Virus record (IMG/VR): IMGVR_UViG_3300032278_000023
Location: 1 to 43,000 of that record
Reading direction: 5' to 3' (one strand)
DNA: 43,000 nucleotides
DNA from: a virus
Shown here: one piece after another, positions 1 through 43,000 of the stretch
How positions within the stretch are numbered: the stretch's first letter is position 1
How the letters are laid out: every line of letters begins with the position of its first letter
The notes under the pieces: model-generated
Databases searched by the model: none
What the model was told of the DNA's origin: nothing
What the model saw: only the letters and a program-made list of their open reading frames with translations
Translations under genes and position numbers: made by a program

Positions 1-592
1 TGGGATGCTTGAGAAGGAGCGCATGGTCATCAACGATGCGTTCATGGTTACACTCTTCGACATTCTCGTAGAGACTCCGCAGATGACGGCCACTCAGGCC
101 CTGATCCGGGCTCAGGAGAAGGGGCAGTTGCTTGCTCCTGCTGTGGGTAGGCAGCAGTCGGAGATGTTGGGCCCGCAGGTACACCGGGAGTTCTCGGTCT
201 TGCTACGTCAAGGGCTCGTGGGTCCGCCGCCGCAGGCGCTGATGGAGGCAGCCGGGGACTACGAGATTGTCTACGAGAGCCCAGCGCAGCGTATGCAGCG
301 CAGCGAGGAGTTGGTGGGTATCCAGCGCACGATGGAGATGGCGATGCCGTTCATCGAAACCGACCCGAGCATCTTGCAGATGTTCAACGCGGACGAAATC
401 ATCCGGCTCTCTGCGGACATCAACGGGGCTCCCGCGAGTATTCTGAAGACACCTGACCAGATGGAAGAGTTGAGAGCGCAGCAGCAGCAGCAGGCACAGC
501 AGCAGCAGATAATGGACTCGATCTCTCAGATCGCCCCAGCGGCCAAGGACTTGTCCCAGATAGAACTCCCCGCGGAGGCTGGCGGTGCGTGA
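1..592 (+). CDS. Portal (head-tail connector) protein, C-terminal part, first copy
   Basis: This gene is cut by the window edge; the frame is open from base 2 and stops at 590-592. The remaining 196 or so residues match the C-terminal third of the complete portal at 38168-39823, roughly three quarters identical by eye, including AQEKGQLLAP, GRQQSEMLGPQ and LSADINGAP. Portals of the T7 gp8 family form the dodecameric ring through which DNA is packaged and ejected. The tail end is glutamine-rich (QQQQQAQQQQ) and is encoded by a run of CAG codons, as in the second copy. The next gene starts inside it on a GTG eight bases before its end, which suggests translational coupling. Substitutions relative to the second copy are spread along the whole segment, so this comes from a different genome version and not from a simple assembly overlap. 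Confidence 0.93.
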   Translation, partial: GMLEKERMVINDAFMVTLFDILVETPQMTATQALIRAQEKGQLLAPAVGRQQSEMLGPQVHREFSVLLRQGLVGPPPQALMEAAGDYEIVYESPAQRMQRSEELVGIQRTMEMAMPFIETDPSILQMFNADEIIRLSADINGAPASILKTPDQMEELRAQQQQQAQQQQIMDSISQIAPAAKDLSQIELPAEAGGA

Positions 593-833
593 GGTTTTGC
601 TTGAGAGAAGTCAGGCATATCAGAAGGTTTTTTCTGGGGAGTTGGGGGGTAAGGTTCTGGCTGATCTAGAGAGGTTCTGCCACGCGAATACGACAACCCA
701 CGTCCCAGGCGACAGCCACGGCACGTCACAACTAGAGGGGCGCAGGCAGGTATGGCTTCGCGTCCAGGGTTATCTTCAACTCACTCCCGCAGATGTGGGT
801 GAGTTGGTGGAAACCGCGGAAGTGGAGGATTAG
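585..833 (+). CDS. Bbp19-like small phage protein, first copy
   Basis: This 82-residue protein starts on GTG at 585 and overlaps the portal stop by 8 bases. It resembles the Bbp19-type domain found beside portal genes in short-tailed phages, with a helical start, a conserved core around ADLERFCHANTTTH and an EGRRQVWLR motif near the middle. No enzymatic motif is visible. Its place between portal and scaffold, kept in the second copy at 39816-40064, points to a role in head or connector assembly, but that is inference. The C-terminus is acidic and is the most variable part between copies. The family call rests on remembered similarity and its function is not established. Confidence 0.8.
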   Translation: MREVLLERSQAYQKVFSGELGGKVLADLERFCHANTTTHVPGDSHGTSQLEGRRQVWLRVQGYLQLTPADVGELVETAEVED

Positions 834-837
834 TCTT

Positions 838-1071
838 TTGTCTCCCCCTTATGGGAAGGGCCCCGGACGGAAGTGTAAGTGCCACCCCAATAAAGCTGGC
901 GACCATCATTTCGATGAGGAGTTGGTGTGTTCTTGGTGTGGTTCGAGTTGGGAAGAGAATCAGAATGGCGCTGGTACCCAGTGCGAAGGAGATGACAGCG
1001 AAACATGGCAGCAGAAGAAGTCGGGACAAGTGCGTCAGGCGTTATTGGAGAGTCAGCAGAAACCCCGGTAG
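838..1071 (+). CDS. Small zinc-binding protein overlapping the scaffold gene, first copy
   Basis: This is about 77 residues. It carries a CxCHPN motif, HHFDE and then CSWCG, a set of cysteines and histidines (Cys13, Cys15, His16, His23, His24, Cys31, Cys34) suited to one zinc site. The second version at 40057-40269 keeps all of them while much of the rest has changed, which supports a real protein. I chose the TTG at 838 because GGAGG lies about ten bases upstream and no ATG falls between the previous stop and the zinc motif; this start is uncertain. The last 67 bases overlap the scaffold gene in another frame: TGG CAG CAG AAG AAG here reads ATG GCA GCA GAA GAA there. Function is unknown; structural or regulatory roles are both possible. 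Confidence 0.65.
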   Translation: MSPPYGKGPGRKCKCHPNKAGDHHFDEELVCSWCGSSWEENQNGAGTQCEGDDSETWQQKKSGQVRQALLESQQKPR

Positions 1072-1865
1072 GGGACACCTCCACTGAGCCTTCTGGGGGC
1101 TGGACCGCGGATTTGGGCGAGGATGCCCAGGGATACGTCGAGAACAAGGGCTGGACCGGGGCCGAGCAGATGCTCGACTCGTACCGGAATCTTGAGAAAT
1201 CTATCGGTGTCCCGGCGGACCAGATCGTCCACATGCCGAAAAACGCTGAAGATACAGAGGGTTGGAACTCCGTATACAACCGTCTGGGGCGACCCGAGAC
1301 GGCGGAGGAGTACCAGCTTACCGGGCCTGAGGTGCCGGAGGGGACGGTCGATCTGACGGGTGACCTCAAGGAGTGGGCCCACGAGGCGGGACTGAGCCAG
1401 CAGCAGGCGGCTCTGATCTACGAGAAGTACAACGGGCGTCTGGGGGAAGTCGCTGCGGAGCAGCAGCAGTATCTCGATGAGGCTGCCCAGGCTGAAGAGG
1501 TGGCGCTCAAGAAGGAGTGGGGACCGGCATGGGATGAGAACATCGCTGCCGCAACCCGCTTCCGGCAGCGTTTCGGGATTGACGATACGACGATTGATAA
1601 GCTAGAACAGGCACTTGGGCTTCGTGGCGTCTTGGAGTTGACCGCGCAGATTGGCCGTGGCCTGGGTGAGCATGTCACTCCCGGGGGCCAGGGAGAGGAC
1701 AGCGGCAACGGTCTGCCCTTCGGTATGACTCCCGCCGCAGCCAAGGCGAAGATCGAGGACTTGATGCTCGACAAAGATTTCATGGGCCAGTACACGGAGG
1801 GGAATGCTCAGGCTAACGAGCGTATGGCTCGTCTCCACACGATTGCGTACCCCGAGCCCGAATAA
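1005..1865 (+). CDS. Capsid scaffolding protein, first copy
   Basis: This 286-residue protein lies directly upstream of the capsid gene, the usual place for a podovirus scaffold of the T7 gp9 type. It is acidic, rich in Glu, Gln, Ala and Gly and low in aromatic residues. The N-terminus is disordered-looking and Ser/Thr/Glu-rich; the middle (about residues 40-110) has the motifs ENKGWTGAEQMLDSYRNLEK and RLGRPETAEEYQL, followed by helical stretches. Such proteins direct assembly of the procapsid shell and leave before or during DNA packaging. The start overlaps the zinc-protein gene. The copy at 40230-41090 has the same length and is similar throughout. The strong conservation of the aromatic-containing middle and the C-terminal region is compatible with portal or capsid binding there, which is inference. 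Confidence 0.88.
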   Translation: MAAEEVGTSASGVIGESAETPVGDTSTEPSGGWTADLGEDAQGYVENKGWTGAEQMLDSYRNLEKSIGVPADQIVHMPKNAEDTEGWNSVYNRLGRPETAEEYQLTGPEVPEGTVDLTGDLKEWAHEAGLSQQQAALIYEKYNGRLGEVAAEQQQYLDEAAQAEEVALKKEWGPAWDENIAAATRFRQRFGIDDTTIDKLEQALGLRGVLELTAQIGRGLGEHVTPGGQGEDSGNGLPFGMTPAAAKAKIEDLMLDKDFMGQYTEGNAQANERMARLHTIAYPEPE

Positions 1866-1878
1866 TTTCGCGTACTCA

Positions 1879-1908
1879 TTGCGCCGGGTTTCGACCCGTG
1901 CATAAGAT
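1879..1908 (+). promoter_or_regulatory. Candidate sigma70-type promoter upstream of capsid, first copy
   Basis: A possible -35 TTGCGC (1879-1884) and -10 TAAGAT (1903-1908) are 18 bases apart, just after the scaffold stop. The match is weak here, but the aligned site in the second copy (41097-41126) is TTGCCA and TATGAT, five of six consensus bases each, at the same spacing. The spacer also contains an inverted repeat (CGGGT, TTCG, ACCCG), so a small RNA hairpin is an alternative reading. If used, transcription would begin about 1915 and give the capsid a private mRNA with a leader of about 170 bases. Confidence 0.4.
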
Positions 1909-1941
1909 GTCACCAGTACCAACTTTACACAGCAGCAAACA

Positions 1942-2080
1942 GGCCCCGGTGTGGCGACCGGGTAAGCCTTCCAGCCAAAACAAAAATCGGCCCCGGTGTG
2001 GCACCCGGACAAGCCTTGGAAGCCGTTTGAACCTGCTGGCCCCGGCAACGGATAAGCCTCGCAAAACACTAGAGGCTTAT
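1942..2080 (+). promoter_or_regulatory. Structured capsid mRNA leader: three stem-loops plus an RBS-sequestering stem, first copy
   Basis: Three elements of the same plan start at 1942, 1989 and 2038, spaced 47 and 49 bases. Each opens with GGC, has an inner hairpin and closes with AA-GCC. The inner hairpins are CCCGGT/ACCGGG with loop GTGGCG (element 1), CCGG/CCGG with inner TG/CA pairs (element 2), and CCG/CGG closed by a GCAA tetraloop (element 3). ATAAGCCTC at 2052-2060 is then perfectly complementary to GAGGCTTAT at 2072-2080, which contains the capsid ribosome binding site. That stem and element 3 both need bases 2056-2058, so they exclude each other. Between 1915 and 2084 the second copy differs at only four places, all C/T changes, fewer than in neighbouring coding sequence. 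A translational switch is inferred; the ligand or protein is unknown. Confidence 0.6.
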
Positions 2081-2084
2081 TCAA

Positions 2085-2951
2085 ATGTCAGACCAAGTAA
2101 ATGTTGCATTTGTGCAGCAGTACGCGAACAACGTCGCGCACCTGTTGCAGCAAAAGGGAAGCAAACTGCGCGATACGGTAATGACCGGATCGGCAACCGG
2201 CAAAGCAGCGAAGGCTGTGGAGCAAGTTGGCGCAGTCAATGCCGTCAAGCGCACCACCCGTCACGGCGACACGCCGCTGATCTCCACTCCGCACGATGCT
2301 CGCTGGGTTTTCCCGGTGGACTACGAGTGGGCCGACCTGATCGACGATCAGGACAAGGTCAGAATGCTCATCAATCCCCAATCGCCCTATGCGGTGAATG
2401 GGGCCTACGCCATGGGTCGAGCCATCGATGACGAGATCATCGGTGCGTTCAATGCCACATCCAAGACCGGAGAGAACGGAACCACCGACACGGACTTGGT
2501 TGCAGGACACACCCTCGCAGTATCGGGATCGGCGCTCACACTCGCCCAGCTTCAGGATGCCAAGAAACTGCTGATGGAAGCCGAGGTGGATGTGGACAAT
2601 GACCCGATCTACATGGCGATCAGCGCGTCTCAGCACGATGACCTCGTGCGGATGACAAGCACCCAGAGCGTCGATACCAACGTGGAGCGTTCGCTGGTCG
2701 ATGGCCGGGTTCGTTCGTTCATGGGGATCAACTTCGTCCTCACCGAGCGGCTGACTGTCGATGGCAGTGGCGACCGACTCTGCCCCGTATGGGCGAAGTC
2801 GGGTATGCACCTTACGGTGTGGAACGACATCACCACCAAGATCAGCGAGCGCGAGGACAAGTCCTACGCCACGCAGGTCTACCTGAAGACCACCATCGGG
2901 GCCACGCGCCTTGAAGAGGGCAAGGTAGTCATGGTTACGGCTGGTGAGTAA
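2085..2951 (+). CDS. Major capsid protein, first copy
   Basis: This 288-residue protein follows the scaffold and has the look of the HK97-fold capsid family seen in short-tailed phages (Phage_capsid_2 type). An N-terminal helical segment with AFVQQY is followed by the DARWVFPVDYEWADLIDD region, and a C-terminal part contains KISEREDKSY and the TTIGATRLEE motif. It forms the icosahedral shell. The start ATG lies ten bases after GAGG, which is buried in the leader stem described at 1942-2080. Apart from a few residues between positions 4 and 14 the protein is identical to the copy at 41303-42169. The DNA is also identical from about 2164 onward, including synonymous sites, although the flanking genes are diverged. 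Confidence 0.93.
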   Translation: MSDQVNVAFVQQYANNVAHLLQQKGSKLRDTVMTGSATGKAAKAVEQVGAVNAVKRTTRHGDTPLISTPHDARWVFPVDYEWADLIDDQDKVRMLINPQSPYAVNGAYAMGRAIDDEIIGAFNATSKTGENGTTDTDLVAGHTLAVSGSALTLAQLQDAKKLLMEAEVDVDNDPIYMAISASQHDDLVRMTSTQSVDTNVERSLVDGRVRSFMGINFVLTERLTVDGSGDRLCPVWAKSGMHLTVWNDITTKISEREDKSYATQVYLKTTIGATRLEEGKVVMVTAGE

Positions 2952-3062
2952 CACCCATTGATGTGAGGGGTCCGGGGCGGAGTCGTGCCGGACCCCAACC
3001 ATCGAACGCAAGGAAACAAATCAAATGCCGACTATTTTCAGTAATCTTTTCAATTCAAGCGG
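2164..3062 (+). repeat. Identical 0.9-kb capsid block, copy 1
   Basis: By visual comparison these bases are identical to 41382-42280 (offset 39,218). The block covers the capsid from about codon 27, the downstream stem-loop and the first codons of the next gene. Identity drops at both edges. Confidence 0.85.
2967..2996 (+). promoter_or_regulatory. Strong stem-loop after the capsid gene, first copy
   Basis: GGGGTCCGG (2967-2975) and CCGGACCCC (2988-2996) form a perfect 9-bp GC-rich stem with a 12-base loop, 16 bases after the capsid stop. No T-run follows, so it is not a classical intrinsic terminator. A partial terminator, an RNase-stop stabilising capsid mRNA, or a processing site are all possible. 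It is identical in the second copy (42185-42214). Confidence 0.6.
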
Positions 3063-3597
3063 ATCGGATGGACCGGGCATGGGTGCCCTTACCGAGGAAC
3101 TGGGACTCGATACACAGAAGCGAGCTTCTGCCGGGTTCTCACACGCCCGCGTAAGGCGCACACATGCCATTGTTGGTCTAGGAACGGTGGCCGGGATAGG
3201 CGACGAAGTTCGTATGCTTACGCTGAAGTCCAGCGATCGGATCTATTCGTTGCTCTTTAGCTCCAACAGCGCTTCAAGCGCGGGTGCTGCGGACATCGGG
3301 ATCTACGAGACCGGAGCAGCGCACGACGGGGCTCTTCCCCATGCGAATTGTCACGATGCGTTCGGCACTGCGGTGGCAACGGACACGGGGACGAACCGTG
3401 TTGAGAAGTTCGCCGCAGGCCCTTTTAACGAAGAGGACATGGGTCTACAGATGTGGGAGTTGGTGAACGTCGTCAGTGCGGCTACGTATGCGTCCGATCC
3501 GGGCGGGTCGTTCGACATCACGCTCACGATGACGACTGCCCAGACGGTTGCGGTTGGGACTGTGCAGCTTGAGGCTTTCTACACCGCAGGCGACTAA
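3025..3597 (+). CDS. Head-associated protein of unknown function, first copy
   Basis: This 190-residue protein is encoded just after the capsid gene, preceded by AAGGAAAC as a probable ribosome binding site. I do not recognise a named family. The N-terminal third (about residues 18-60) is highly conserved between the two copies. The middle (about 75-135) varies most, and the C-terminal SFDITLTMTTAQTVAVG stretch suggests beta structure. Small beta-rich proteins directly after a capsid gene are often decoration or head-completion proteins, so a capsid-surface role is a reasonable guess. The first 38 bases lie in the identical block shared with the second copy; identity ends abruptly at 3062. 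Confidence 0.8.
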   Translation: MPTIFSNLFNSSGSDGPGMGALTEELGLDTQKRASAGFSHARVRRTHAIVGLGTVAGIGDEVRMLTLKSSDRIYSLLFSSNSASSAGAADIGIYETGAAHDGALPHANCHDAFGTAVATDTGTNRVEKFAAGPFNEEDMGLQMWELVNVVSAATYASDPGGSFDITLTMTTAQTVAVGTVQLEAFYTAGD

Positions 3598-3619
3598 CAT
3601 AACGGGGGGCCGATAACGG

Positions 3620-4180
3620 ATGCCTAGTGCAGTCGATATATGCAATAGGGCGCTAAGCCGTGTCGGCGAAGCGCGGATCACTTCACTCGCAGATGACAGC
3701 AAACAGGCACGCGCGTGTACAAGCGCGTATGCCGCTGTTCGTGATGAAGTGTTCCGCGCCCATCCCTGGAATAGTGCCATCACGAGAACCTCTCTGGCGA
3801 AGCTCTCCAGCTCCCCCAGTTTCGGGTACGATGATGAGTACCAACTACCAGCCGACTGCCTTCGCGTAGTCGAGGTGTACGATAGCGTCTATCCCTGGGT
3901 GGTTGAGGGGAAGAAGTTGCTATCGGATGAAGGCTCCCCCATCTCGATCCGGTACGTCAAGCGTGAGGAAGATCCTAACCAGTGGGACTCTCTGCTGGCG
4001 TCCGCTGTAGCGGCACGCTTGGCTGTGGAGTTGTGCGAGGAACTCACGCAGAGCAATACAAAGCGGACTTTGGCTGCGGACGAATATACCGCCATCATGG
4101 CATCAGCCCGAAAAGCGGACGGCCAGGAACAAAGCCCGATGCCGTTCGCGGAGGATGCCTGGATCACTGCGAGGAACTAG
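3620..4180 (+). CDS. Tail tubular protein A (T7 gp11-like)
   Basis: This 186-residue protein has the family's hallmark opening, SAVDICNRALSRVGEARI, and the RDEVFRAHPWNSA motif, followed by YQLPADCLRVVEVYD. Such proteins form the dodecameric adaptor ring below the portal, to which the tail nozzle and fibres attach. The length agrees with the T7 gp11 family (about 190-200). The ATG follows a G-rich stretch at 3602-3608, and its stop is followed directly by the ATG of tail tubular protein B. A second, partial version begins at 42839. Confidence 0.92.
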   Translation: MPSAVDICNRALSRVGEARITSLADDSKQARACTSAYAAVRDEVFRAHPWNSAITRTSLAKLSSSPSFGYDDEYQLPADCLRVVEVYDSVYPWVVEGKKLLSDEGSPISIRYVKREEDPNQWDSLLASAVAARLAVELCEELTQSNTKRTLAADEYTAIMASARKADGQEQSPMPFAEDAWITARN

Positions 4181-37649: not shown

Positions 37650-37898
37650 ATGGGAGTTGAAGCCTTACTTATAGCGAGTCTCGTATCGACGGTAGTCTCG
37701 GCTGCGACACAGCCAGAGATGCCGGAAGTACCTGAACCTGAAACACCGGCTTTGGCTCCTGAAGAAGCCAAGCGAAGTGCGGAAGCGCGGCGCAGAAAAG
37801 TCCGGTCTGGCGGAAGAGCTTCCACTCGGCTGACACAACCACTGGGTGGACCGCAGATGGCTCCGCCGACTGGTGCGACAAAGATCACGGGGGGGTAG
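37650..37898 (+). CDS. Small head/tail protein, paralogue 1
   Basis: This is 82 residues. A hydrophobic N-terminal stretch (VEALLIASLVSTVVSAA) is followed by a Pro/Glu-rich linker and a basic segment ending in TRLTQPLGG, QMAPPTGA and ITGG. The C-terminal 25 residues are repeated in the next gene. T7-like phages place small structural proteins with similar short Gly-rich tails (gp6.7 or gp7.3 type) just before the portal, which is my best guess. The stop lies one base before the next ATG. Confidence 0.6.
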   Translation: MGVEALLIASLVSTVVSAATQPEMPEVPEPETPALAPEEAKRSAEARRRKVRSGGRASTRLTQPLGGPQMAPPTGATKITGG

Positions 37899-37902
37899 TA
37901 TG
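37830..37902 (+). repeat. Direct repeat upstream of portal, unit 1
   Basis: About 73 bases, from CTGACACAACCAC to the next ATG, recur 268 bases downstream at 38098-38170 with around a dozen substitutions. Both units end with an identical ATCACGGGGGGGTAGTATGG, including a seven-G run that acts as the ribosome binding site region of the following gene. Confidence 0.8.
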
Positions 37903-38166
37903 GGCCTTGCAATGTACGACGAGCTTGAACGACAGGCACCTGGGGCTGGACGCGCTCTCTTCGGGCCCACCTTCGATAAGCCAATCGCTAAACGAGACGC
38001 TCGGTCGAAAAAGTCGAAGTCGGATACCGCATCCCGGTATCATAGTTTGGCCCGTGGGGGTAGAGAAGCACGTTCTGGCATAAGGTCTTCCGCGAGGTTG
38101 ACACAACCACTCGGTGGATCGCAGATGGCTCTGCCGACTGGAGCGGGAAGGATCACGGGGGGGTAG
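37900..38166 (+). CDS. Small head/tail protein, paralogue 2
   Basis: This is 88 residues from ATG 37900. The C-terminus RLTQPLGGSQMALPTGA followed by RITGG nearly repeats the end of the preceding gene, and the basic middle (REARSGIRSS) is also similar; the N-termini differ (MYDELERQAPGAGRALFGP here). Stop TAG and the portal ATG are joined in the same TAGTATGG context as the previous junction, so the duplication includes the translation signals. Confidence 0.6.
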   Translation: MGLAMYDELERQAPGAGRALFGPTFDKPIAKRDARSKKSKSDTASRYHSLARGGREARSGIRSSARLTQPLGGSQMALPTGAGRITGG

Positions 38167-38170
38167 TATG
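38098..38170 (+). repeat. Direct repeat upstream of portal, unit 2
   Basis: This is the second copy of the repeat at 37830-37902. It ends at the portal start codon, so the portal has inherited the same start context as the small paralogue gene before it. Confidence 0.8.
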
Positions 38171-39823
38171 GCTAAGAATGTCGAAGACTGTTTACGGCGT
38201 CTAAATGAACTTGAGGGCCGACGCCACAACTGGGATAGCCACTGGCAAGAAGTGGCTGAACGGGTGTGGCCGGCGGCGGATGAGTTCCTGACAACGCGAA
38301 GTGTAGGCGAAAAGCGAAGCACCAAGATATATGATGCGACGGCTGCGATGGCGCTGGAGAAGTTTGCTGCCGCCCTGGAGTCCATGCTCACGCCTCGGGC
38401 TCACAAGTGGCACTCACTACGCTCTACGGATGAGAACTTGAACCGTGATCCTTCGGTGAAGGTCTGGTTTGAAGAAGTGGCGCGCATCATGTTCCAGGCG
38501 CGCAACTCTCCTAACGCTGGGTACTACTCCCAAATGCACGAGGGCTACAAGTCCCTGGGTGCTTTTGGTAACTCGTGCCTATTCGTAGATGAGCCCCGAG
38601 ACGGTCGCGGTGGGGTCACCTATGTCCAGTGCCATGTGGGCTCGGTGTATATCGAGATCAACCCGGCACGGCGTATCGATACCATCTACCGCAAGTACAC
38701 GATGAGTGCGAAGGCTGCCGCGCAGGAGTGGGGCGCTGAGAACCTGCCGGACAAGATCGCCCAGGCGCTAGAACAACCGGACCAGCTCTACAAGCAGTTT
38801 GAGTTTTTGCACGTTGTGATGCCTCGGATGGATTACGACAAAGAGCGGAAAGACGCGGAGGGTATGCCGTGGCTCTCGTACCATATCGGCATCGATGACA
38901 AGGCCATGATCGATGAGGGCGGCTATCACGAGATGCCGTATCTCTACTCCCGCTACACGGTGAATCCCACCGAGATGTACGGGCGATCCCCGGCGATGCT
39001 GGTCCTGCCTTCAATCAAAATGGCGCAGGAGATGCAGAAGACCTTTATCCGAGCTGGTCACAAGTTGGTTGACCCGCCCCTACTCCTTCACGATGACGGA
39101 GTATTGGGTACGGGCAGCAAGCAGGTACGACTCACGCCCGGAGGACTCAACTACGGCGGCGTGGACGCCAATGGTCGCCCGCTGATCCAGCCGCTCCAAA
39201 CAGGGGCTCGCCTGGACATCACCGAGGGGATGCTCGAAAAGGAGCGTGCCGTTATCAACGATGCGTTTCTGGTCACGTTGTTCCAGCTCCTGCTGGACAA
39301 GCCCTACATGACGGCGACCGAGGCGCTGATCCGCGCCCAGGAGAAGGGTCAGCTTCTGGCTCCCACCGTGGGCCGGCAGCAGTCGGAGATGTTGGGTCCG
39401 CAAATCCATCGAGAGTTTTCTATCCTTCAGCGCCAGGGGATGCTGCCCCCGATACCGCAGCCTCTGCTTGAGGCTAGCGGCGAGTATGAGATTGGCTACG
39501 AGAGCCCTTCCATGCGGATGCAGCGCACCGAGGAGCTGGTGGGAATCCAGCGGACGATGGAGATGGTGGCCCCGTTTGCCGAGGCAGACCCGAGCATCCT
39601 GTCCATCTTCAATACGGAGGAGATCATTCGTCTCTCCGCCGACATCAATGGAGCCCCAGCCACCATACTGAAGACTCCAGATGAGATGGAGCAGGTGCGT
39701 CAGCAGCAGCAGCAGCAAGCGCAGCAGCAGCAGATGATGGCGGCCATGACACAAGCCGCGCCTGCGATGAAGGATATGGCGCAGGCCCAGGCGGCACTAC
39801 CGGAGGAGGCAGGCGGTGCGTGA
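38168..39823 (+). CDS. Portal (head-tail connector) protein, complete second copy
   Basis: This is 551 residues from ATG 38168; the frame is open further upstream, but that part is the shadow of the small paralogue and 38168 has the G-run start context. It matches T7 gp8-type connectors: an N-terminal RRLNELEGRRHNWDSHWQEV helix, the KIYDATAAMALEKFAAAL segment, LTPRAHKWHSL, MEMQ-type helices in the stem region, and a Gln-rich C-terminus. Twelve copies form the ring at one vertex that takes the terminase and later the tail. It overlaps the Bbp19-like gene by eight bases, as in the first copy. Confidence 0.95.
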   Translation: MAKNVEDCLRRLNELEGRRHNWDSHWQEVAERVWPAADEFLTTRSVGEKRSTKIYDATAAMALEKFAAALESMLTPRAHKWHSLRSTDENLNRDPSVKVWFEEVARIMFQARNSPNAGYYSQMHEGYKSLGAFGNSCLFVDEPRDGRGGVTYVQCHVGSVYIEINPARRIDTIYRKYTMSAKAAAQEWGAENLPDKIAQALEQPDQLYKQFEFLHVVMPRMDYDKERKDAEGMPWLSYHIGIDDKAMIDEGGYHEMPYLYSRYTVNPTEMYGRSPAMLVLPSIKMAQEMQKTFIRAGHKLVDPPLLLHDDGVLGTGSKQVRLTPGGLNYGGVDANGRPLIQPLQTGARLDITEGMLEKERAVINDAFLVTLFQLLLDKPYMTATEALIRAQEKGQLLAPTVGRQQSEMLGPQIHREFSILQRQGMLPPIPQPLLEASGEYEIGYESPSMRMQRTEELVGIQRTMEMVAPFAEADPSILSIFNTEEIIRLSADINGAPATILKTPDEMEQVRQQQQQQAQQQQMMAAMTQAAPAMKDMAQAQAALPEEAGGA

Positions 39824-40064
39824 TCTCCTGATAGAGCGGAGTCAGGCATACAAACAGACGTTCGACGGTGAACCGTCTGGGAAGGTGATGGCCGATCTGG
39901 AAAGGTTTTGCCACGCGAATACCACTACTCACGTTGGGGGCGATAGTCACGGGACCGCCCAGCTTGAGGGTCGCCGTCAGGTCTGGCTGCGGATTCAGGG
40001 TTATCTGTCACTGAGTGAGGGCGACATAGGGGAGATGGTTGAGACTGCGGAAACAGATGGTTGA
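39816..40064 (+). CDS. Bbp19-like small phage protein, second copy
   Basis: This is 82 residues with a GTG start, the equivalent of 585-833. The core ADLERFCHANTTTHVGGDSHG and EGRRQVWLRIQGYL is nearly the same, while the first third and the acidic C-terminus differ. The overlap with the portal stop is retained exactly, which favours the GTG start in both. Confidence 0.8.
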   Translation: MRDLLIERSQAYKQTFDGEPSGKVMADLERFCHANTTTHVGGDSHGTAQLEGRRQVWLRIQGYLSLSEGDIGEMVETAETDG

Positions 40065-40269
40065 GCCCGTGAAGAAAATTCCTACGGGTCGCAGGTTCGA
40101 CTGCGATTGCCACCCTAATGCCGCCGGGGCACATCATTTCGATGAGGACTTACTTTGTTCGTGGTGTGGGGTCAGGTGGAGTAAACATCAGCGCACTGGG
40201 TTCCAGTGTATAGGAGAGAGTGATAAGACATGGCAGCAGAAGAAATCGGAGTTAGCGCGGAGAGTGTGA
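40057..40269 (+). CDS. Small zinc-binding protein overlapping the scaffold gene, second copy
   Basis: This is 70 residues from ATG 40057, which overlaps the previous stop by eight bases. It keeps CDCHPN, HHFDE, CSWCG and a later cysteine in GFQCIG, like the copy at 838-1071. The final TWQQKKS motif is conserved partly because the same DNA encodes the scaffold start MAAEE. The frames overlap by 40 bases here and 67 in the first copy. Confidence 0.65.
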   Translation: MVEPVKKIPTGRRFDCDCHPNAAGAHHFDEDLLCSWCGVRWSKHQRTGFQCIGESDKTWQQKKSELARRV

Positions 40270-41090
40270 CGAGCGGCGAGCCTTCGGGATCAGCCGAGGT
40301 CACCACATCGGAACCGTCTGGAAACTGGACCGAGGGACTGGCGGAAGACTCTCAGGGGTATATCGAGAACAAGGGCTGGAGCGGGGCTGAGCAGATGCTT
40401 GACTCGTACCGGAACCTTGAGAAGTCGATGGGAGCCCCTGCGGATCAGATTGTACACCTTCCCAAAGACGCGGAAGACGCGGAAGGCTGGAACAATGTCT
40501 ACACGAGACTGGGCAGGCCCGAGACGGCAGACGGCTATAAGCTGTCCGAGACTCCGGTTCCCGAAGGCGCGATGGATCTGACGGGGGATCTCAAGCAGTG
40601 GGCGCACGAGGCTGGTTTGAGTCAGGCCCAGACTGCCCGCCTGCATGAGCGGTACAACGGGAGGCTGTCCGAGCTGGTGCAGGAGCAGCATCAGAAAGGA
40701 GCTGAAGTCGCCCAGGCGGAAGAGGCCGCACTCAAAAAGGAGTGGGGCTCAGCCTGGGATGAGAATATCGCGGCGGCTACGCGCTTCCGGCAGCGGTTCG
40801 GGATTGACGGCGAGACGATTGACAAGCTAGAGGGCGCGCTGGGCTTGAAGGGCGTACTGGAACTGACAGCGAAGATCGGGCGCGGTCTAGGGGAGCATGC
40901 GATGCCTACAGGGTCTGAAGAGGACAGTGGGAACGGTCTAGCCTTCGGGATGACCCCCGGAGCGGCCAAAGCCAAGATCGATGAGCTTATGCTCGATAAG
41001 GAGTTTATGGGGCAATATGTGGATGGACGCCCCCAGGCTGTAGACCGGATGACCCGGCTGCATAGTCTGGCTCACCCAGAATCTGAATGA
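40230..41090 (+). CDS. Capsid scaffolding protein, second copy
   Basis: This is 286 residues, the same length as the copy at 1005-1865. ENKGWSGAEQMLDSYRNLEK and ATRFRQRFGID are conserved. Most differences are in the N-terminal 30 residues and in the charged helix around 145-165. The start is fixed by the conserved MAAEE sequence and the overlap with the zinc-protein gene. Confidence 0.88.
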   Translation: MAAEEIGVSAESVTSGEPSGSAEVTTSEPSGNWTEGLAEDSQGYIENKGWSGAEQMLDSYRNLEKSMGAPADQIVHLPKDAEDAEGWNNVYTRLGRPETADGYKLSETPVPEGAMDLTGDLKQWAHEAGLSQAQTARLHERYNGRLSELVQEQHQKGAEVAQAEEAALKKEWGSAWDENIAAATRFRQRFGIDGETIDKLEGALGLKGVLELTAKIGRGLGEHAMPTGSEEDSGNGLAFGMTPGAAKAKIDELMLDKEFMGQYVDGRPQAVDRMTRLHSLAHPESE

Positions 41091-41096
41091 TACTCC

Positions 41097-41126
41097 TTGC
41101 CACGGTCACCAACCCGTGCATATGAT
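41097..41126 (+). promoter_or_regulatory. Candidate sigma70-type promoter upstream of capsid, second copy
   Basis: TTGCCA (41097-41102) and TATGAT (41121-41126), spaced 18, match five of six consensus bases each. This is the better of the two aligned sites (compare 1879-1908). The spacer holds the inverted repeat CACGG/CCGTG, different in sequence from the one in the first copy but in the same place. Confidence 0.5.
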
Positions 41127-41159
41127 GTAATCAGTACCAATTTTACACAGCAGCAAACA

Positions 41160-41298
41160 GGCCCCGGCGTGGCGACCGGGTAAGCCTTCCAGCCAAAACA
41201 AAAATCGGCCCCGGTGTGGCATCCGGACAAGCCTTGGAAGCCGTTTGAACCTGCTGGCCCCGGCAACGGATAAGCCTCGCAAAATACTAGAGGCTTAT
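41160..41298 (+). promoter_or_regulatory. Structured capsid mRNA leader, second copy
   Basis: It has the same three stem-loops and ribosome-site stem as 1942-2080 with identical spacing. Inside this span three bases differ, all C/T: one at the closing pair or loop of element 1, one at an unpaired base in element 2, and one in the loop of the last stem. None disrupts the main stems. Confidence 0.6.
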
Positions 41299-41302
41299 TC
41301 AA

Positions 41303-42169
41303 ATGTCAGATCAAATTTCAACTGCTTTTGTGCAGCAGTACTCGACTAACGTCGCGCACCTGTTGCAGCAAAAGGGAAGTAAACTGCGCGATACGGTAAT
41401 GACCGGATCGGCAACCGGCAAAGCAGCGAAGGCTGTGGAGCAAGTTGGCGCAGTCAATGCCGTCAAGCGCACCACCCGTCACGGCGACACGCCGCTGATC
41501 TCCACTCCGCACGATGCTCGCTGGGTTTTCCCGGTGGACTACGAGTGGGCCGACCTGATCGACGATCAGGACAAGGTCAGAATGCTCATCAATCCCCAAT
41601 CGCCCTATGCGGTGAATGGGGCCTACGCCATGGGTCGAGCCATCGATGACGAGATCATCGGTGCGTTCAATGCCACATCCAAGACCGGAGAGAACGGAAC
41701 CACCGACACGGACTTGGTTGCAGGACACACCCTCGCAGTATCGGGATCGGCGCTCACACTCGCCCAGCTTCAGGATGCCAAGAAACTGCTGATGGAAGCC
41801 GAGGTGGATGTGGACAATGACCCGATCTACATGGCGATCAGCGCGTCTCAGCACGATGACCTCGTGCGGATGACAAGCACCCAGAGCGTCGATACCAACG
41901 TGGAGCGTTCGCTGGTCGATGGCCGGGTTCGTTCGTTCATGGGGATCAACTTCGTCCTCACCGAGCGGCTGACTGTCGATGGCAGTGGCGACCGACTCTG
42001 CCCCGTATGGGCGAAGTCGGGTATGCACCTTACGGTGTGGAACGACATCACCACCAAGATCAGCGAGCGCGAGGACAAGTCCTACGCCACGCAGGTCTAC
42101 CTGAAGACCACCATCGGGGCCACGCGCCTTGAAGAGGGCAAGGTAGTCATGGTTACGGCTGGTGAGTAA
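41303..42169 (+). CDS. Major capsid protein, second copy
   Basis: This is 288 residues, identical to the copy at 2085-2951 except at several residues between positions 4 and 14 (QISTAFVQQYSTN here, QVNVAFVQQYANN there). The N-terminal codons are clearly diverged while everything after about 41382 is base-for-base the same. Confidence 0.93.
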   Translation: MSDQISTAFVQQYSTNVAHLLQQKGSKLRDTVMTGSATGKAAKAVEQVGAVNAVKRTTRHGDTPLISTPHDARWVFPVDYEWADLIDDQDKVRMLINPQSPYAVNGAYAMGRAIDDEIIGAFNATSKTGENGTTDTDLVAGHTLAVSGSALTLAQLQDAKKLLMEAEVDVDNDPIYMAISASQHDDLVRMTSTQSVDTNVERSLVDGRVRSFMGINFVLTERLTVDGSGDRLCPVWAKSGMHLTVWNDITTKISEREDKSYATQVYLKTTIGATRLEEGKVVMVTAGE

Positions 42170-42280
42170 CACCCATTGATGTGAGGGGTCCGGGGCGGAG
42201 TCGTGCCGGACCCCAACCATCGAACGCAAGGAAACAAATCAAATGCCGACTATTTTCAGTAATCTTTTCAATTCAAGCGG
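41382..42280 (+). repeat. Identical 0.9-kb capsid block, copy 2
   Basis: This is the partner of 2164-3062. It lies inside the longer, diverged duplication that runs from about 39226 to the window end and corresponds to 1-3781. Confidence 0.85.
42185..42214 (+). promoter_or_regulatory. Strong stem-loop after the capsid gene, second copy
   Basis: It is identical to 2967-2996: a 9-bp GC-rich perfect stem with a 12-base loop and no T-run. Confidence 0.6.
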
Positions 42281-42815
42281 GACGGTCAGTCCGGGCGTCG
42301 GTGCCCTTACCGAGGAACTTGGACTCGATACACAGAAGCGAGCTTCTGCCGGGTTCTCACACGCCCGCGTAAGGCGCACACATGCCATTGTTGGCCTGGG
42401 GACGACAGCCGGGATAGGCGACGAAGTTCGTATGCTTACGCTGAAGTCCAGCGATCGGCTCTATTCGTTGCTCTTTAGCTGCGACGGCGCTTCAACGGCG
42501 GGTGACGCGGACATCGGGATCTACCGCACCGGAGCAGCGCACGACGGGGCTCTTCCCCATGCGGATTGTCACGATGCGTTCGCAACTGCTCTGGCAATGG
42601 ACACGGATGCGAACCGTGTTGAGAAATTCGCCGGAGTCGCTTTCGACGAAGAGAACATGGGTCTTCAGATGTGGGAGTTGGTGAACATCGTCGCTGCGGC
42701 TACCTACGCGGAAGATCCGGGCGGGTCGTTCGACATCACGCTCACGATGACGACTGCCCAGACGGTTGCGGTTGGGATTGTGCAGCTCGAGGCTTTCTAC
42801 ACCGCAGGCGACTGA
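42243..42815 (+). CDS. Head-associated protein of unknown function, second copy
   Basis: This is 190 residues, the counterpart of 3025-3597. The first twelve codons are identical in DNA, then differences appear, concentrated around residues 13-20 and 75-135. Same length and ending (LEAFYTAGD). Confidence 0.8.
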   Translation: MPTIFSNLFNSSGTVSPGVGALTEELGLDTQKRASAGFSHARVRRTHAIVGLGTTAGIGDEVRMLTLKSSDRLYSLLFSCDGASTAGDADIGIYRTGAAHDGALPHADCHDAFATALAMDTDANRVEKFAGVAFDEENMGLQMWELVNIVAAATYAEDPGGSFDITLTMTTAQTVAVGIVQLEAFYTAGD

Positions 42816-42838
42816 TTCCAAGGGGGGGCCGATAACGG

Positions 42839-43000
42839 ATGCCCAGTGCAGTCGATATATGCAATAGGGCGCTAAGCCGTGTCGGCGAAGCGCGGATCAC
42901 TTCACTATTGGACGACAGCAAGCAGGCGCGAGCGTGCAACAGCGCCTACACGCATGTCCGAGATGAAGTGCTCCGCGCTCACCCCTGGAACAGTGCCATC
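42839..43000 (+). CDS. Tail tubular protein A, partial second copy
   Basis: The window ends 54 codons into this gene. The visible part (SAVDICNRALSRVGEARI, then RDEVLRAHPWNSA) matches the start of 3620-4180 with scattered changes, so the second version continues beyond the window. Confidence 0.9.
   Translation, partial: MPSAVDICNRALSRVGEARITSLLDDSKQARACNSAYTHVRDEVLRAHPWNSAI

Follow-up and report, generated by a model that had tools for sequence, protein, structure and literature searches.

A permutable RNA bulge module at two head genes of HTVC010P-like podoviruses looks like a switch on head protein synthesis

Introduction

How the amounts of scaffold and coat protein are balanced in double-stranded DNA phages is a long-standing question. 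For P22, post-transcriptional autoregulation of the scaffold protein was proposed decades ago, and we know of no defined RNA site of the kind described below in that system. The question returns at the capsid leader of the viral DNA studied here (the window, meaning the whole 43-kb stretch analysed), where the original prediction had proposed a three-element RNA switch hiding the ribosome binding site of the capsid gene. Is this leader a regulatory RNA, which genes does it serve, and what might read it?

Results

The window comprises a 39.2-kb genome followed by a diverged second genome start. Positions 1-3781 recur at 39227-43000 with about 70% identity over most of the upstream part and with 100% identity at capsid bases 2176-3000, which suggests either that two strains were joined into a chimera or that recombination recently took place across the capsid gene. 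The capsid protein shares 40-51% identity with its counterparts in HTVC010P-like pelagiphages and in Manatee Spring podoviruses. The scaffold protein has weak similarity, below the cut-off, to the T7 capsid-assembly protein, and its homologues are annotated 'capsid assembly protein'. Adjoining the scaffold gene is that of a Bbp19-like protein with a predicted helical fold, represented by 138 homologous ORFs in the fetched loci and carrying the invariant residues Y12, F16, D27, L28, F31, C32, G52, R53, V56 and R59. Between these two genes lies a 92-aa ORF (793-1071) with a zinc-ribbon-like CxCH...CxxC motif (KCKCHPNK...VCSWCG), and the clade relatives L006, L025 and L026 have counterparts of this stretch. 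Near the end of the genome, a 115-nt direct repeat (37789-37903 and 38057-38171, 82% identical) is spaced by 268 bases.

Table 1. Positions of the leader elements, the pairing strands and the neighbouring genes in the window.
Feature	Positions	Strand	Remark
Element 1, normal form, GGC-C-CCGG(TGTGGCGA)CCGG-GTAA-GCC	1942..1968	+	
Element 2, normal form, GGC-C-CCGG(TGTGGCAC)CCGG-ACAA-GCC	1989..2015	+	
Element 3, normal form, GGC-C-CCG(GCAA)CGG-ATAA-GCC	2038..2058	+	Closest to capsid start
Element 1 tail, CTTCCA	1968..1973	+	Pairs with TGGAAG, 2017-2022
Element 2 tail, TGGAAG	2017..2022	+	Pairs with 1968-1973
Enclosing helix around elements 1 and 2, 5' strand CAGCAG	1930..1935	+	Partner CTGCTG, 2033-2038; window MFE
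Anti-Shine-Dalgarno strand, ATAAGCCTC	2052..2060	+	Overlaps element 3 at 2052-2058
Capsid Shine-Dalgarno strand, GAGGCTTAT	2072..2080	+	Perfect complement of 2052-2060
Major capsid protein gene, presumed regulated gene	2085..2951	+	PHROG 3437, HTVC010P-like
Scaffold/capsid-assembly protein gene	1005..1865	+	phrog_3742; directly before the capsid gene
Small Bbp19-like protein gene	585..833	+	PF25181; candidate RNA-binding partner by position and basic sequence only
Second, diverged copy of the three elements	41160..41276	+	Repeated genome start
Anti-Shine-Dalgarno strand, second copy	41270..41278	+	
Shine-Dalgarno strand, second copy	41290..41298	+	

The 219 bases that separate the scaffold and capsid genes hold three elements and a helix that hides the Shine-Dalgarno sequence (Table 1). 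The starts proposed for the three stem-loops were correct, the perfect complementarity around the Shine-Dalgarno sequence was found again as a 9-bp helix, and this helix and element 3 are indeed mutually exclusive, with bases 2056-2058 common to both. Each of the three conforms to the family plan described below (3-bp stem, YAA bulge, Y.R wobble, C-G pair and inner stem), the wobble position being C.A in elements 2 and 3 and C-G, a clade variant, in element 1. The tails of elements 1 and 2 form a joining helix (CUUCCA:UGGAAG) kept in 13-15 of 16 clade leaders, and at the position of the predicted enclosing helix different letters pair in relatives (judged by eye; CATTGAA/TTCAATG in L006). The descriptor matched the forward strand of the window only at the three elements and their second copy, and its reverse strand nowhere (0 matches). 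Among 2000 dinucleotide-shuffled versions of the leader, any element at all arose in 1 and a set of three in 0, and the leader fold (-62.8 kcal/mol, z -2.6) is more stable than those of shuffles; the Shine-Dalgarno complement taken alone is moderately unusual, with 8 bp reached in 6% of leader shuffles. The original prediction had also pointed to the sparse differences between the two copies of the leader. The four C/T changes are correct, but because capsid bases 2176-3000 are identical in both copies, the comparison says little about constraint on the leader, for which the telling evidence comes from relatives.

The leader had been recognised as no named RNA, and this held in Rfam 15, where neither the window nor seven relatives matched a family at the gathering threshold or at a relaxed one. 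A 14.5-bit match to sul1 on the other strand was a chance match, as was the only match to an intrinsic terminator, likewise on the other strand.

We then compared capsid leaders of close to very distant relatives, drawn from IMG/VR, phage records and bacterial genomes. The element consists of a 3-pair outer stem, a Y opposite an R, the bases YAA, and an inner stem that starts with C-G and otherwise varies together with its partner strand. Among 108 leaders less than 80% alike, 82 have an element closest to the capsid start, against 2 reverse complements and 0.7 shuffled leaders, and its outer stem is GGC/GCC in 73 and GAC/GTC in 4, with five others. With one strict descriptor covering the normal form and the permuted form described below, 103 of 151 non-redundant capsid leaders carry an element (normal in 70, permuted in 67); the reverse strands of the same 151 gave 0 of either. 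Since the descriptors themselves require pairing, we relied on reverse-strand, shuffle, anchor and swap controls. When, to avoid circularity, only the sequence anchors GGCYC and GRYAAGCC were fixed and the inner positions left free, inner pairs 2-4 were paired in 98, 100 and 92% of cases versus 83, 48 and 49% after partner shuffling, a level reached in 0 of 2000 shuffles. Alignment A3, in which two or three sequences are one column off in the outer stem with no effect on the conclusion, was 97.3% paired versus 81.2%, with co-variation of 0.432 versus 0.106 (0/500 shuffles), and slid controls collapsed; these co-variation and pairing tests ignore phylogeny, and the IMG/VR leaders are related by descent. 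The compensatory changes whose absence would have counted against the original prediction are thus present in both stems in homologous leaders, where both the element and the Shine-Dalgarno pairing (see below) co-vary. The RNA that it placed in the capsid leader is real, but each unit is one hairpin with a bulge, present in one to four copies, and the three capsid-leader copies are peculiar to the window's clade.

An IMG/VR scan blind to proteins, using the 17-base pattern GGCCCCG-N3..9-CGGACAAGCC, led back to the same gene. It returned at least 79 usable new loci, and among those listed 67 precede an ORF of this capsid family within 1.4 kb, usually starting about 20-90 nt past the pattern; the remaining listed matches were 1 incomplete capsid ORF and 11 apparent chance matches inside other frames. 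Across the relatives, records name alpha- and beta-proteobacterial hosts, and MAG labels add others, although the host names of many contigs are metagenome bin labels that may be wrong. Outside the HTVC010P-like group, the named phages of Acinetobacter, Alcaligenes, E. coli (APEC), Vibrio (VP2/K227) and Alteromonas (ZP6) showed no convincing element.

Several other structures were seen in these leaders. Vibrio phage 1.182.O (L087, -63 from the capsid start) and Yersinia phage YeP5 (L088, -118) each have a single ATAC-type candidate, TCC-C-CTCATGATGAG-ATAC-GGA and CAG-C-CCGG..CCGG-ATAC-CTG, respectively, which may be distant members or chance. Vibrio VP2 (L271), Alteromonas ZP6 (L272) and Vibrio K227 (L273) share a different capsid leader with repeated GGGTAGC or GGTAGC, which may be an analogous regulatory RNA. 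A hairpin with the loop GGAAAGAC or GAAAG, for example CAGGAAAGACTG, recurs between a permuted and a normal element in L186, L191, L163, L089 and others.

Is the capsid gene the only target? The density of elements along contigs has a second peak 1.0-1.3 kb upstream, at the first codons of the scaffold gene. With scaffold starts picked by open frames rather than annotation, 75 of 159 non-redundant sequences have an element 3-48 nt past the start codon, and 0 have one in a stretch 300 nt further on. The distance is mostly 12-18 nt; the detailed list has positions from +3 to +30, and its controls gave 1-2 matches. The capsid gene, named as the target by the original prediction, does carry the element in its leader, but about half of the relatives also carry one at the scaffold start, which makes two genes and not one the target. 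The outer stems there are GGG/CCC, GCC/GGC or ACC/GGT, and the encoded peptides differ as well (GSAMLAGNP, APAIGGQG and TSAVSGQG, or GSxxxAGNP, APxxGGQG and TSxxSGQG); since stems and amino acids differ while the RNA plan stays the same, the constraint lies at the RNA level. No scaffold-start copy was found in the window, in its nearest relatives and clade, or in Burkholderiales prophages. In the cultured pelagiphages HTVC010P, Lederberg, HTVC035P, Greip, HTVC100P and HTVC203P, permuted elements lie at scaffold +11 as well as near -140 in the capsid leader; in HTVC204P and Skadi-3 only the scaffold has one, and the descriptor found none in Baldr and HTVC028P; the pelagiphage scaffold outer stems exchange CAC/GTG, CTC/GAG and CGC/GCG. 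Apart from weak chance matches and one strong extra, searches covering most or all of 10 contigs matched only the capsid leader and the scaffold start. The extra element, GGC-C-CCCC-GCA-GGGG-ACAA-GCC, lies about 15 kb from the capsid leader (G004:C1:4310-4331, - strand; L319). In two genomes, L256 and L259, the last bulge base has changed from A to C at the capsid and scaffold sites alike, as would be expected if each phage encoded its own partner.

The permuted form keeps the internal loop and closes the hairpin on its other side, xxG-ACAA-yyy(loop)y'y'y'-C-Cx'x', as in CCCG-ACAA-CCC-cacaa-GGG-C-CGGG (L034) or in GACCG-ACAA-GCC..GGC-C-CGGTC, found at Burkholderia peredens, Cupriavidus necator and Trinickia soli loci. 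It occurs in 61 of 143 leaders and in 0 of 143 reverse strands, with 21 different complementary outer stems, and some copies overlap the stop codon of the upstream gene. Because the module survives being turned inside out, what is recognised is presumably the internal loop and not the terminal one. Across relatives the bulge hardly varies, and the Y changes in step with the first of the four bulge bases: scaffold sites have U.G 54 times, C.A 23 times and C-G or U-A never, and C.A is found in 137 of 156 capsid-leader cases. As C.A+ and U.G wobbles share one geometry, the bulge proper probably consists of the three bases YAA. The permuted topology and the C.A/U.G exchange together define an RNA bulge module of its own. 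It is not a kink-turn, as Watson-Crick outer pairs follow the bulge and a C.A/U.G wobble precedes it in place of tandem sheared G.A pairs.

We also asked how the element relates to the Shine-Dalgarno sequence in other leaders. Element regions pair better with their own Shine-Dalgarno sequence than with swapped ones (-16.7 versus -12.8 kcal/mol, p 1.7e-12), and an upstream control stretch in the same swap test was at chance. The pairing takes two routes, through the 3' strand of the element (the window, L006, L083 and L188) or through one side of the inner hairpin (CTCCCGGTGAG:CTCACTGGGAG in L036, CTCCTATGAG:CTCATAGGAG in L043), and both exclude formation of the element. Prediction makes the closed state the default: in 73 of 77 leaders the MFE structure has the Shine-Dalgarno sequence paired. 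At window positions 2030-2095 the closed fold is computed at -22.0 kcal/mol and that with the element formed at -11.5 kcal/mol; forcing the element costs 10.5 kcal/mol here and a median of 6.8 kcal/mol. An all-or-none reading does not apply generally, since in 54 of 77 predictions with the element forced at least three-quarters of the Shine-Dalgarno sequence remains paired.

By sequence comparison, then, there is an RNA family that comes in two topologies and at two gene sites, with co-variation and with pairing to the Shine-Dalgarno sequence.

Discussion

This family appears to be a hitherto unrecognised RNA switch controlling the output of each head protein. We consider it probable that the window's leader belongs to a wide family of cis-acting translational operators in HTVC010P-like podoviruses, read by a protein of the phage. 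The bulge module would be recognised by a trans-acting factor, most likely the phage's scaffold, Bbp19-like or capsid protein. Bound some 12-18 nt past the scaffold start, this factor would block initiation. In the capsid leader, where the module competes for bases with the helix that hides the Shine-Dalgarno sequence, the predicted default, binding would stabilise the module, free the Shine-Dalgarno sequence and allow the capsid protein to be made, so that one protein could shift synthesis from scaffold to capsid. That a single phage protein would act in this way on two neighbouring genes, through either topology and with opposite effects (scaffold initiation blocked, capsid Shine-Dalgarno opened), is a tentative proposal. 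A protein partner as such, its identity, the sign of the regulation and any joint action of the window's three copies are what we infer.

Two observations favour a phage protein: with hosts ranging from Pelagibacter to Burkholderiales, the module stays with two head genes of a single capsid family, and in L256 and L259 the A-to-C change is found at both sites. The scaffold protein is the candidate we would name first, as a possibility short of an expectation; the Bbp19-like protein comes next, as a more speculative choice, the capsid protein is unlikely and a host factor unlikelier still. AlphaFold models of the Bbp19-like protein (pLDDT 90) and of the scaffold (pLDDT 77) gave no PDB match and no RNA-binding fold.

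A conserved host factor, such as a ribosomal protein, RNase III or E, or an RNA chaperone, could instead time or process the head-gene mRNA, and a nearly invariant bulge in phages of alpha- and beta-proteobacteria (and, by MAG labels, of others) would suit it. This is nonetheless improbable, given that the element hardly occurs outside two adjacent head genes and a single capsid family and that, in L256 and L259, a bulge base changed at both sites of the same phage. Less probable again is a small-molecule riboswitch aptamer, repeated for a cooperative response and sensing a metabolite or nucleotide state late in infection. The compact conserved core, the tandem copies and the mutually exclusive Shine-Dalgarno helix are what such an aptamer would have; however, no Rfam riboswitch matched, only some ten bases are fixed in a core made of one bulge, the element was not seen in use by host genes, and a site inside the scaffold coding start is unusual for riboswitches.

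With about the same low probability as a riboswitch, the leader may work with no trans-acting partner and set a fixed or kinetic rate, being open during transcription and closed later, or being opened, for example, by ribosomes finishing the scaffold gene (translational coupling). The default fold that closes the Shine-Dalgarno sequence and the permuted elements that overlap the upstream stop codon agree with this, but it leaves unexplained why the unpaired YAA bulge and the wobble are invariant and why the same module is present at the scaffold start. Finally, sites at fixed places in the genome could mean that the conserved letters act as DNA, in the role of a promoter or of a site for replication or packaging, or that those within the scaffold gene reflect amino acids. 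We regard this as very improbable, since compensatory changes in all stems, the C.A/U.G exchange and the permuted topology are meaningless in DNA, and the groups of scaffold sites encode different residues with the same RNA plan.

The reading that we prefer, an operator bound by a phage protein, places the element near several known systems. The coat operator of the single-stranded RNA phages MS2 and R17 is likewise a short hairpin with a bulge; it too sits where translation begins and couples the supply of a virion protein to the regulation of another gene. The MS2 operator has a single bulged A and an ANYA loop, whereas here the loops vary freely, the signal is a YAA bulge beside a wobble, permuted forms exist and the phages have double-stranded DNA; an MS2-type coat operator was rejected because the present element has a YAA bulge, and free loops in place of the ANYA tetraloop. 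The post-transcriptional control proposed for the P22 scaffold also links scaffold amount to head assembly, although no RNA element like the present one is known from that phage. Riboswitches with tandem aptamers that sequester the Shine-Dalgarno sequence also have repeated units and an aptamer-like fold that excludes a Shine-Dalgarno helix, but the present element has no Rfam match, no known ligand and a one-bulge core, and it also lies inside a coding start. T4 operators (the gene 32 pseudoknot, gp43 and RegA sites) are mRNA sites at translation starts to which phage proteins bind (PMC3014915). They resemble the present sites in serving a double-stranded DNA phage at translation starts, protein binding being inferred here, and differ in acting on replication or many early genes, in being A+U rich or partly unstructured and in having no common motif; a gene 32-type operator was rejected, as the hairpins here are G+C-rich and lack an A+U-rich single-stranded tract.

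What is found here of a phage translational operator is the structured site: a conserved mRNA structure in the capsid leader and at the scaffold start, with co-variation. As the defining features of MS2 and T4 operators are absent, we do not count it among those proper, although its working is likened to theirs. The literature searched contained no description of this RNA element, and the main text of a human-microbiome RNA motif list does not mention capsid. We would class it as a new family of RNAs among the phage translational operators, a known kind, with a permutable bulge and a two-gene head-assembly target as its unusual features.

The element is conserved in IMG/VR podoviruses, in prophages of cultured Burkholderiales and in cultured SAR11 phages such as HTVC010P, and it gives metagenome annotation a clean signature of this capsid family. 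A compact RNA site is now defined at exactly the scaffold and capsid genes, which makes the question of their balance directly testable. If the proposed mechanism is true, head assembly itself would set the scaffold-to-capsid ratio in a group that includes abundant SAR11 phages.
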